This document shows, in pieces, positions 36,011 through 57,475 of a stretch of 64,000 nucleotides of DNA (position 1 is the stretch's first letter; each line of letters opens with the position of its first letter). The translations under genes were made by a program, and so were the position numbers. The stretch covers positions 1 through 64,000 of the forward strand of contig JAJRYV010000030.1 of NCBI GenBank assembly GCA_024275575.1. Reading direction: 5' to 3'. Under the pieces are notes generated by a model. That model searched no databases and had not been told where the DNA came from. It worked only from the letters and a program-made list of their open reading frames with translations. This stretch comes from a bacterium. GTDB taxonomy: Bacteria; Zhuqueibacterota; Zhuqueibacteria; Zhuqueibacterales; Geothermadaptataceae.

Positions 36011-36058
36011 ATGGCTGAGGAAGTTGCAAAAAATCTGATTTTAAAAGTTGAGTCATAA
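36011..36058 (+). other. Orphan start segment of fliN/fliY, closed by in-frame TAA
   Basis: ATG 36011 has a good ribosome site (GGAG at 36000-36003, seven bases away) and encodes M-A-E-E-V-A-K-N-L-I-L-K-V-E-S before TAA 36056-36058. The same frame continues after the stop, through I-S-Q-E-F-S-T, into the fliN/fliY gene. This looks like the true start, cut by a nonsense codon, or less likely a leader peptide. Confidence 0.65.
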
Positions 36059-36079
36059 ATATCGCAAGAATTTAGCACG

Positions 36080-36910
36080 ATGATGGCGAATGACGCCATG
36101 ATCACCTTAACTTTTACGCCGAAAGACGTGGATCTGCTGCAGGCAGATGACCTCGGCGCCCTTTTCGGGGATGCGCCTTGCCAGCTCATTAGTTCAAAAA
36201 TTACCTGGCAGGATGAGCTGGAGCAAAAATTTATCATCACCGAGGAGAATGCAAATGCGCTGATCGCAAAAATCAATGAATTCAACGACGCCATCGATTC
36301 GGTTGAAATTCTGCTGGAAAACTGGAACCTTGCCGGGCAAAACAATCTCGGTGCAAACCTTGAATCAGCGCCGCTCTTTTCAGCGCCGGAACTCGAAATG
36401 CGCAGCCTCACAGGATCGGACTCACCGGCTGAAACGCTGCATGTACAATATGAAATGGAAATCGACGGTTCAGTTTTTCATTTCAGCAAAATCGTCGGCA
36501 CAGGCTGGCAGACAATTCTCGAAGCTGCGCACCTCGATGTGACAACTGTCGATGATGTCGAAGCAAAACCAGCAGTCACAGTTGATGATGCCGATTTTAG
36601 TGACCTGGGCAGCGGATCAGCACAGAGCAATGACTCTAGCGAAAGCACTGACATTTCAATGCTTTACGATTTGAAACTCGACGTCGTCGTCGAGCTTGGC
36701 CGGACGCAAAAACTGGTGCAGGATATTCTGCAACTTGGCCGCGGCGCCATCGTCGAGCTCGATAAACTCGCCGGCGATCCGGTGGAAATCTATGTCAATG
36801 GTAAACGGCTGGCGCTCGGCGAAGTCGTGGTCGTCGATGATCATTTTGGTGTGCGCATCACGCAGCTGGTTCGGCGCTCCGAACGTGTACATAGCCTGGG
36901 AGATAGCTGA
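36080..36910 (+). CDS. fliN: Flagellar motor switch protein FliN/FliY, N-terminus interrupted
   Basis: At least 276 residues. The C-terminal SpoA domain (about 195-272) is clear: L-D-V-V-V-E-L-G-R-T-Q-K-L-V, L-G-R-G-A-I-V-E-L-D-K-L-A-G-D-P-V-type pattern, and V-V-D-D-H-F-G-V-R-I-T. The N-terminal half resembles a CheC-like domain as in FliY. I do not see the E-x-x-N phosphatase motif. ATG 36080 has no ribosome site, whereas ATG 36011 upstream in the same frame does; TAA at 36056-36058 separates them. The gene may be damaged, reinitiated, or mis-sequenced. It follows fliM and precedes fliO. Confidence 0.85.
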   Translation: MMANDAMITLTFTPKDVDLLQADDLGALFGDAPCQLISSKITWQDELEQKFIITEENANALIAKINEFNDAIDSVEILLENWNLAGQNNLGANLESAPLFSAPELEMRSLTGSDSPAETLHVQYEMEIDGSVFHFSKIVGTGWQTILEAAHLDVTTVDDVEAKPAVTVDDADFSDLGSGSAQSNDSSESTDISMLYDLKLDVVVELGRTQKLVQDILQLGRGAIVELDKLAGDPVEIYVNGKRLALGEVVVVDDHFGVRITQLVRRSERVHSLGDS

Positions 36911-54043: not shown

Positions 54044-55039
54044 ATGAAAAGTAACTCAAACCGCGGTATTCTCTTTTTCTCCGTTTTTCTCCGTTGTGCA
54101 CTCTTTGTCTTTTTGTTGGCTGATTTTGTTGTAGCCGGGCAGAAAATGACGCTCAAATTAAAATCCCAGGTTATCGTTGTGGGGCCGAATGTAAAATTAA
54201 CAGAGATTTGTACTATCCTGCCGAATGATGCAGCGTTGCTGCGCCGGCTTGATAAAATCATTCTTGGCCGGGCAGCCCCGCCTGGCGAATCGAAAGAAAT
54301 TTCCCGCAGCCTGATTAAAATGAATCTGCGGCGAACCGGCATGTACGATCGCCTGGGTGCCATCACCGGGCCGCGCACCGTGCGGGTTAAAACCGCTCAA
54401 AAAGATATTACGCGGGTAAAAATTGAAGATGCCGTGGCGCAGTTTATCGGAAGCAAAATGCCTGACAGGGCCGTCGAGTGGCGTTTTGATTATAGCCGAA
54501 TCGCAGAAAAAATAGCCGGCCCGGTGCACCCGTTTGAGTTCAAAATCAGATTGCAAAATAGCCGATTAAACAAAGGGCACACGACTTTTGAAGTTCGTAT
54601 AATGGCCGACGGCAAAACTGTGACCCGCACCAAAGTGTCCGGTATTTTGCGAACGTTTGAAAACGTCGCCATCGCTGCGAAAGAATTATCCCGCGGGCAA
54701 GTATTGCAGCCGGGCGATATGCTGACAAAAAAAATGGAGACGACTTATCTCGCCGGCGATCCACTGCTCACCCTTGGCGGGGAAAAACCGCTGGAAAGTC
54801 GTGTGCGCATCCCTGCAGGAAAAATAATAACCCGGAAAATGATCATGGCAAGCCCGGCGGTTCGCAAAGGCGAGCGGGTTGTGCTGGAAATCGTTGCGGG
54901 AAATGTGGCCTTGCGCACCCGGGCATTATCGCAGCAGAATGGCGCTTTGCATGAAAATATCCGCGTCTGGATGCAGGATACGCGCAAAATTTTAAAAGGT
55001 GAAATTATCGCCAAAGGTTTGGTGAGGGTTGAATTATGA
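54044..55039 (+). CDS. flgA: P-ring assembly chaperone FlgA
   Basis: A 331-residue periplasmic protein. The N-terminus looks like a signal peptide (about 1-38, with V-F-L-L-A-D-F-V-V-A-G). The C-terminal SAF/FlgA domain has A-A-K-E-L-S-R-G-Q-V-L-Q-P-G-D and R-K-G-E-R-V-V-L-E-I-V-A-G-N-V. FlgA helps FlgI form the P ring. It overlaps flgH by four bases (ATGA). Confidence 0.9.
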   Translation: MKSNSNRGILFFSVFLRCALFVFLLADFVVAGQKMTLKLKSQVIVVGPNVKLTEICTILPNDAALLRRLDKIILGRAAPPGESKEISRSLIKMNLRRTGMYDRLGAITGPRTVRVKTAQKDITRVKIEDAVAQFIGSKMPDRAVEWRFDYSRIAEKIAGPVHPFEFKIRLQNSRLNKGHTTFEVRIMADGKTVTRTKVSGILRTFENVAIAAKELSRGQVLQPGDMLTKKMETTYLAGDPLLTLGGEKPLESRVRIPAGKIITRKMIMASPAVRKGERVVLEIVAGNVALRTRALSQQNGALHENIRVWMQDTRKILKGEIIAKGLVRVEL

Positions 55040-55626
55040 AAAGATTACGATTTGCCGGTTTTTTTTTCACCCTGATATTTTTTGTCTGCAATGCAAATGA
55101 ACTGCTGCTTGCTCAAACATTTGCGACAGCCGAATCATTTTATGCCGATACCCGGGCACACCGGGTTGGTGATATCATTACCATCCACATCGTCGAATAT
55201 TCACAAGGCAGCAATGAAGCCGATTCGCGCACGCAGAAGGATAGTTGGATTGGGCTGAATACGAAAGGCTCGGGGCCGTTGGGATTTATTCCCATCGGCG
55301 GATTTGGGCTGCAGAATAAAGTTGATTTTACTGGCCGGGGCGAATCAAACCGCAAGGGCAGTCTGCGTGGTAAGATGACAGCAAGAATTACCTCGGTTGA
55401 TGATAACGGCAATTTCGCTATCAGGGGGAACCGGGAAATCATCGTCAACAACGAAAAACAGATGATGGTTTTGGATGGCACCATTCGTCCCGAAGACATC
55501 TCAAAACAAAATATAATCATGAGTTATCAAATTGCAGATGCTAAAATCAGTTACAACGGTTCGGGCCCGACGGTGCGGAGCCAGAAACCGGGTTGGATTA
55601 CGCGCATATTTAACTGGCTTTTCTGA
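55036..55626 (+). CDS. flgH: Flagellar L-ring protein FlgH
   Basis: A 196-residue outer-membrane ring protein. The family core is present: V-G-D-I-I-T-I-H-I-V-E, G-E-S-N-R-K-G-S-L-R-G-K-M-T-A, and I-R-G-N-R-E-I-I-V-N-N-E-K-Q-type ending. FlgH is usually a lipoprotein; here the only early Cys (residue 18, in F-F-V-C) is not in a standard lipobox, so lipid modification is uncertain. It overlaps flgA, and flgI follows. Confidence 0.92.
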   Translation: MKRLRFAGFFFTLIFFVCNANELLLAQTFATAESFYADTRAHRVGDIITIHIVEYSQGSNEADSRTQKDSWIGLNTKGSGPLGFIPIGGFGLQNKVDFTGRGESNRKGSLRGKMTARITSVDDNGNFAIRGNREIIVNNEKQMMVLDGTIRPEDISKQNIIMSYQIADAKISYNGSGPTVRSQKPGWITRIFNWLF

Positions 55627-56716
55627 CCTGTTTTTTCTATGTTTGGTTAGTTTTTTGCTTTTTTCAACCCTGCATGCGGCAGTTCGAACGAAAGATATTG
55701 CCAGTGTTCAGGGGTTGCAAGCAAAAAAACTCGTTGGATATGGGCTGGTCATCGGCCTTGACGGCTCCGGGGATACCCGCCGTTCGATGGTATCATTGCA
55801 GACCGCAACGAATATGCTGCGTCGTTTCGGCATCAGCCTGCCGAAGGAACCGCTGCAATTGCGCAACATCGCGGCGGTGATGATCACGGCGGACCTTCCG
55901 GCATTCATGCCTGCCGGCAGTGCCATCGATGTGCAGGTTTAATCGATGGGCGACGCTAAAAGCCTTGAAGGCGGCACACTTGTGCTTTCGCCTCTTGTCG
56001 ATGATCGTGGTAAACTCTTTGCCCAGGCTCAGGGCCCGGTATCAGTCGGAGGTTACAATATCGAAAGCATTGGCGGAGATCGCATTCGTAAAAATTTTAC
56101 CCTTGTTGGCCGTATTCCAAATGGAGCAGCCCTTGTGCGGGATAGTGAGATCACGAGTCTTCCCGATTCCGTTCTTTTTCTCACATTGAAATCGCCGGAC
56201 TTTACGACCGCCGTCAAACTGGCGATAGCGATCAATACGACTTTGAACAGTAAGCAGGCGAGTGCGCTCAATGCGGTACAAATTCGTGTCGATATTCCTG
56301 CCCAGTATCAGGCCAAAGTTGCTGAATTTATAAGCCTTATTGAAAATACCGAAGTCGAACCGGACGTGCCTGCCCGCGTTGTTGTTAACGAGCGTACCGG
56401 AACGGTCATTGTCGGAGAAAATGTGACGATTTCGCCGGTGGCAATCGCCCATGGAAATTTGCGCATCGAAGTGAAAAATTTCCCCATCGTTTCGCAGCCA
56501 GCACCGTTTTCACAGGGGCAAACGACGGTTGTACCCAATACACAAACGACGGTAACCGATACCTCCGGCCGCATGCTGGCGTTTGACGCTTCGGCAAACA
56601 TCAAAGACGTCGCCCGCGTGCTCAATGCGCTGGGTGTGACGCCGCGTGATCTCGTGGCGATCTTCCAGGCATTAAAGAGGGCTGGTGCGCTGAAAGCTGA
56701 ACTGGTCATCATGTGA
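55532..56716 (+). pseudogene. flgI: flgI, P-ring protein gene with in-frame TAA
   Basis: The frame encodes a complete FlgI apart from one stop. The N-terminal part has V-R-T-K-D-I-A-S-V-Q-G-L-Q-A, Y-G-L-V-I-G-L-D-G-S-G-D-T and I-A-A-V-M-I-T-A-D-L-P. The conserved Ser of I-D-V-x-V-S-S-M-G is replaced by TAA at 55940-55942; S-M-G-D-A-K-S-L-E-G-G follows at once. No ribosome-binding start is convincing: the frame opens at TTG 55532 inside flgH, and TTG 55643 gives a short signal peptide. Either the gene is damaged, reinitiated, or has a sequencing substitution. Confidence 0.75.
55946..56716 (+). CDS. flgI: FlgI C-terminal part, downstream of the in-frame stop
   Basis: A 256-residue frame beginning at ATG 55946, three bases after the TAA. 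It contains the main FlgI body: G-G-D-R-I-R-K-N-F-T-L-V-G-R-I-P-N-G-A, L-K-S-P-D-F-T-T-A, and A-R-V-V-V-N-E-R-T-G-T-V-I-V-G. It lacks a signal peptide, so alone it would not reach the periplasm. Reinitiation at this ATG is conceivable, but there is no clear ribosome site. Confidence 0.7.
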   Translation: MGDAKSLEGGTLVLSPLVDDRGKLFAQAQGPVSVGGYNIESIGGDRIRKNFTLVGRIPNGAALVRDSEITSLPDSVLFLTLKSPDFTTAVKLAIAINTTLNSKQASALNAVQIRVDIPAQYQAKVAEFISLIENTEVEPDVPARVVVNERTGTVIVGENVTISPVAIAHGNLRIEVKNFPIVSQPAPFSQGQTTVVPNTQTTVTDTSGRMLAFDASANIKDVARVLNALGVTPRDLVAIFQALKRAGALKAELVIM

Positions 56717-56761: not shown

Positions 56762-57475
56762 ATGGAAGATTTTAAAATCATCAATAATCCTTTTGCCGAC
56801 AAGCTGCTGAGCGAGGCGCAGGCCAACATGAAAAACCCGAAGTCGGCAAAAGCTGATAAAGCCAACGAGCAGTTTGAGTCGCTTTTCGCTGGTATGCTTT
56901 TCAAGGCGATGCGCAAAGCGATGGCGCCGGAAGGTTTTTACGGTGAGGGTCCGCAAGGTGACATTTTCCAATCGATGATGGAACAGCGCTTCAGTGAAAT
57001 TGTCGCGCGTCGAAACCAGCTCGGCATCGCCGATTTGCTCAGACAACAGTTTGATCTTTCCAGTGGTCGCCCGAAAAACGAAACATTACCCGAGTCACAA
57101 TTGCAGGAAATTGTCGCGGAAGCTGCCAAACGAACCGGACTTGATGCACGCTTGATCCTGGCTGTGATCAACCAGGAAAGCGGCGGCAATCCAATGGTTG
57201 TTTCAAAAGCCGGCGCCAAAGGCATGATGCAGTTGATGGATGAAACTGCAGCGCAATTGCAGGTACAAAACGTTTTTGACGCACGGGAAAATATTTTTGC
57301 CGGCAGCCGATATTTAAAGCAACAACTGGATGAATTTCAGGATTTGAAACTGGCACTGGCTGCATATAATGCCGGCCCGTCGGCAGTGAAAAGGTACGGC
57401 GGTATTCCGCCGTATAAAGAAACGCAGAATTATGTGCACCGCATTTTTAACCTGCTGCAGCGCACGGAGGAATAA
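56762..57475 (+). CDS. flgJ: FlgJ-like rod-cap and lytic transglycosylase
   Basis: A 237-residue protein with two parts. The N-terminal rod-binding domain (about 30-100) has E-Q-F-E-S-L-F-A-G-M-L-F-K-A-M-R. The C-terminal SLT-type transglycosylase domain (about 115-230) has catalytic Glu in A-V-I-N-Q-E-S-G-G-N-P, then G-A-K-G-M-M-Q-L-M and A-L-A-A-Y-N-A-G. Enterobacterial FlgJ carries a different C-terminal enzyme, a glucosaminidase. It should open peptidoglycan for the rod. No signal peptide is needed, as export is by the flagellar route. Confidence 0.88.
   Translation: MEDFKIINNPFADKLLSEAQANMKNPKSAKADKANEQFESLFAGMLFKAMRKAMAPEGFYGEGPQGDIFQSMMEQRFSEIVARRNQLGIADLLRQQFDLSSGRPKNETLPESQLQEIVAEAAKRTGLDARLILAVINQESGGNPMVVSKAGAKGMMQLMDETAAQLQVQNVFDARENIFAGSRYLKQQLDEFQDLKLALAAYNAGPSAVKRYGGIPPYKETQNYVHRIFNLLQRTEE

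Follow-up and report, generated by a model that had tools for sequence, protein, structure and literature searches.

Does the in-frame stop codon in flgI mean that this bacterium has lost its flagellar P ring, or does it reflect something else in the assembled sequence? The window, a stretch of 64,000 nucleotides, lies in contig C1 (105 kb); the genome, that of an uncultured Calditrichota bacterium, totals 4.96 Mb in 144 contigs and is 98% complete. The gene for the P-ring protein, flgI, occupies positions 55628-56716 of the forward strand and contains a single internal TAA at 55940-55942, in frame with the coding sequence on either side. With the stop read through, the frame from 55643 to 56713 matches the FlgI profile over its full length (PF02119, positions 1-343 of 343, E 7e-123), and the NCBIfam FlgI model as well; the initial annotation, which had seen intact FlgI on both sides of the stop, was thus correct on this point. 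The locus resembles known FlgI (PF02119; PDB 7bgl, 8z5n) in this homology and in its flgA-flgH-flgI-flgJ context; it differs in that its frame is not uninterrupted, with TAA at an almost invariant serine. The genome has no second flgI, which rules out rescue by another copy. Plasmid records contain only distant FlgI proteins, with less than 60% identity, and viral contigs gave zero matches to the pattern around the stop site.

All the neighbouring genes lie on the same strand and are intact: flgA, the P-ring chaperone (54044-55039; PF13144), whose start was placed by the match to its orthologue and which is whole relative to that of the congener G001; flgH, the L-ring gene (55036-55626; PF02107); and a flgJ-like gene for a rod-binding protein with an SLT transglycosylase domain (56762-57475; PF10135 and PF01464). 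Nearly all other orthologues on this contig are intact too. The frame of flgI is open upstream as far as 55532, and its start is probably either CTG 55628, placed just past the flgH stop, or TTG 55643. In G001, flgI has no ATG, GTG or TTG where the start is expected (55624-55643 of the window); all three genomes of the genus keep a CTG one nucleotide past the end of flgH, which suggests a coupled CTG start.

None of 18 relatives carries a stop in flgI, and none of those aligned ends and restarts the gene here. The codon at the stop site encodes serine in 64 of 66 rows of relatives and alanine in the other two, though a few contigs are represented by more than one row. The initial annotation had quoted the corresponding E. 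coli segment; the best-matching FlgI in the PDB reads VDVTVSSIGSAKSL, and the claim that a conserved serine was replaced stands. Both congeners (the Calditrichaeota MAGs CLD2 and CLD5) have TCA at this codon, so the single base change proposed for the TAA would explain it. Downstream of the stop, flgI shows a dN of about 0.07-0.10 against the congeners, with saturated dS and no frameshift. This branch has 10 unique residues, and those of the congeners have 7 and 12: it is not the faster one. An ordinary decayed pseudogene does not match these data, with neither relaxed constraint nor further lesions in flgI. The lack of relaxation past the stop implies that the TAA arose very recently, or else that it is not real or that the functional gene lacks it.

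The case shows how a control across the genome helps to weigh a striking lesion in a single gene of an environmental assembly. We compared seven contigs (C1, C52, C116, C62, C20, C30 and C138) with the syntenic stretches of G001, reading each ORF of one genome across the other; 408 orthologous genes were covered, amounting to 146 kaa or about 440 kb of coding DNA. An isolated stop was counted when the protein aligned well on both sides. This assembly has 12 isolated stops (11 TAA and one TAG) and two frameshifts in 408 genes, while G001 has none or one stop in 404 genes (Fisher p 0.003 for 12 of 408 against at most 1 of 404). Further hits in antisense ORFs of C116, in a 5' extension of C20 and at a gene 3' end (C1:82851) were set aside; reverse hits in G001, mostly antisense ORFs, 5' extensions and tRNA regions, were judged spurious by position and identity rather than one by one. 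Four further relatives, G003 (about 36 genes), G005 (about 34), G004 (9) and G002 (8), showed no isolated stops in samples of 8-38 genes each.

The stops fall in unrelated genes and are absent from relatives. On C1, besides flgI at 55940, they interrupt a fliN/fliY-like C-ring gene (36011-36910, forward strand; FliMN_C, TIGR02480), with TAA at codon 16 (36056-36058), where the congener's open orthologue has glutamate, and a TPR protein (77471). C52 contributes a sigma-54 activator (77549), alaS (70466), a large protein of unknown family (48310) and a SurA-like protein (20948); C116 an unknown gene (102467) and a CTP synthase gene, pyrG (188012); C62 a sugar transferase (43699); and C20 a PMT_2 family protein (65228) and an LD-carboxypeptidase (20305). 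The frameshifts are an insertion in a TPR gene and, in a gene of the LPG_synthase_TM family (L199, C20 near 49840), a T-run one T shorter than in the congener. With 12 stops against two frameshifts, substitution-type lesions dominate. What had been read as an event of flgI itself consequently survives in part: a TAA does stand at a conserved serine, one base from TCA, but the 408 genes hold 11 further isolated stops, and alaS, a single-copy gene, has one of these; this indicates a genome-wide, sequence-level cause not specific to flgI.

Two of these genes, alaS and pyrG, are expected to be essential, and lesions in such genes favour a sequence-level cause. The alaS stop is a TAA at codon 621 of 872 (gene found as L175), in the only copy found in the genome; it precedes the tRNA_SAD and DHHA1 domains and removes both. 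The pyrG stop, a TAA at codon 481 of 575 (in L147), falls inside the glutaminase (GATase) domain. Truncated AlaS can nevertheless charge tRNA, residues 1-700 of the E. coli enzyme being active (PMC4649089), and the alaS stop is thus not strictly lethal.

The composition of the set is not random. TAA accounts for 11 of the 12 stops (p 0.002), and a G:C>T:A change fits at least nine of the 12, an approximate count with ancestral codons inferred from the congener's residues; from codon usage one would expect 31% (p 0.002). The residues replaced, as judged from G001, are glutamate six times, serine three times, and glutamine, aspartate and alanine once each. G:C>T:A changes are typical of oxidised guanine, whether in vivo or in the library. 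Both mutY and mutM are intact, so that their loss, as in a mutator lineage of the 8-oxoG type, is rejected. Polarised amino-acid changes are only slightly more numerous in this genome than in the congener (570 vs 524; 362 vs 353), and a uniform load of random errors, sought as excess amino-acid changes, was undetectable at the power available. The outgroup-polarised single-step spectrum shows no excess of C>A (24 vs 32). In well-conserved stretches of this genome, radical G:C>T:A missense changes number 38 vs 28 and conservative ones 229 vs 319, an asymmetry that depends on the threshold (Fisher p 0.011; two other thresholds gave 0.06 and 0.16); with several thresholds tried, this mild excess of radical changes is no more than suggestive. 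As an independent gauge of substitution error we turned to rRNA, but none of the five genomes yielded a 23S.

Could the stops be real and yet harmless? A change of the genetic code, with TAA standing for an amino acid in this lineage, would account for TAA standing inside several conserved genes, and some protists do translate UAA as Glu or Gln. Here, however, TAA is a normal terminator: of the 201 genes whose ends were compared, 105 close with it, at positions that coincide with those of the congener (mean extension 0.14 codon). No UAA-reading tRNA occurs among the 41 tRNAs, none having a UUA anticodon, and the anticodon of tRNA-Sec is UCA. The mixture of replaced residues leaves TAA without a single amino-acid meaning, and the congeners have no internal TAA. 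The locus thus shares with known cases of reassignment or readthrough the internal TAA in conserved genes and differs from them in that genes still terminate normally at TAA, a matching tRNA was not found and the replaced residues are of several kinds. Both a reassigned TAA and a suppressor tRNA are rejected, and the code change can be given next to no credence. Taken together with the intact repair genes, the same observations exclude as causes both recoding and a defect of mutY or mutM. It is also very improbable that the isolated TAAs are real and tolerated in a Calditrichota lineage that reads UAA through appreciably while keeping it as its normal terminator.

For flgI itself, enough protein could in principle arise from UAA readthrough or from a restart at ATG 55946-55948, three bases past the stop on the same strand. 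The reading frame is intact to either side of the TAA, an AGG at 55935-55937, eight bases before the ATG, may serve as a weak Shine-Dalgarno-like element, and the prevalence of TAA among the internal stops, six of the 12 at a glutamate of the congener, would suit readthrough. Against readthrough stand the regular termination at TAA, the tRNA complement and the mixed residues described above. The restart, which the initial annotation had held out as a possible escape, is not credible: its ORF (55946-56716) encodes 256 residues, so that the signal peptide is missing along with some 100 residues from the N terminus, the greater part of the conserved region there. The E. coli FlgI is exported by Sec with cleavage of its leader, all substitutions that impair motility lie within the conserved N-terminal region (residues 1-120), and disruption of flgI halts the flagellum at the rod (PMC2885626). 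By this analogy the 256-residue product is not expected to form the ring, and a stop that is real but tolerated is very unlikely. A cell that truly carries the stop is probably non-motile; the proviso "if real" in the initial annotation was well placed and is the key issue.

Two readings carry most of the weight. In the one that we somewhat favour, the TAA would be a change of one base that the assembly shows but the organism's functional flgI lacks: most likely a consensus error of the MAG, or a stray non-functional allele picked up by the consensus, with about a dozen substitutions of this kind across the compared portion of the genome. In its favour are the excess of stops over the relatives, the needed genes among those hit, the dominance of substitutions over frameshifts, the unrelaxed flgI and its intact neighbours. 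The technical origin of the set is an inference, probable but far from assured. Polarised amino-acid changes barely above the congener's count and an alaS stop short of strictly lethal weaken it. The contigs are 105-204 kb long, which argues against very low coverage and so counts against a consensus error, and the non-random type of the stops (TAA, G:C>T:A) could reflect a biological mutation bias. That bias would suit the competing possibility, which we regard as distinctly weaker though serious: a real, very recent nonsense mutation, giving a non-motile strain without FlgI and P ring in a lineage that accumulates nonsense mutations, whether because its population is small, because selection for motility has relaxed or because G:C>T:A mutation is raised. 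Flagellar genes account for two of the 12 stops (flgI and fliN/fliY), the stop classes are skewed to G:C>T:A, radical missense changes of this class are in mild, threshold-dependent excess, and arrest at the rod is the known outcome of flgI disruption in E. coli (PMC2885626). It sits poorly, however, with intact mutY and mutM, with the paucity of frameshifts, unlike ordinary gene decay, with alaS and pyrG among the genes hit, with the unrelaxed flgI and with a single-step spectrum free of C>A excess. Compared with the nonsense pseudogenes of draft genomes and MAGs, the set is alike in its isolated single-base stops, in constrained genes and absent from relatives; it differs in being unusually rich in TAA and G:C>T:A and in including genes expected to be essential. 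A literature search on premature stops caused by assembly error in MAGs found nothing.

Altogether, the flgI stop is most likely a sequence-level stray or a recent mutation rather than a meaningful loss of the P ring. Should all the stops be real, this would be an unusual genome, with nonsense accumulation biased to G:C>T:A. About 3% of the compared genes carry such stops, among them genes that should be essential. Claims from this assembly that motility is lost, or that a gene is a pseudogene, are therefore untrustworthy without reads.

One case in the congener is of another kind. The remaining interruption in G001 is a TGA in a methyltransferase gene, opposite a cysteine of this genome (L158:18511-18573, minus strand; L130:9930-10952). 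The stem-loop sought downstream of it was not significant. A tRNA-Sec is present in this genome, in G001 and in G003, and on that ground the TGA may encode selenocysteine.
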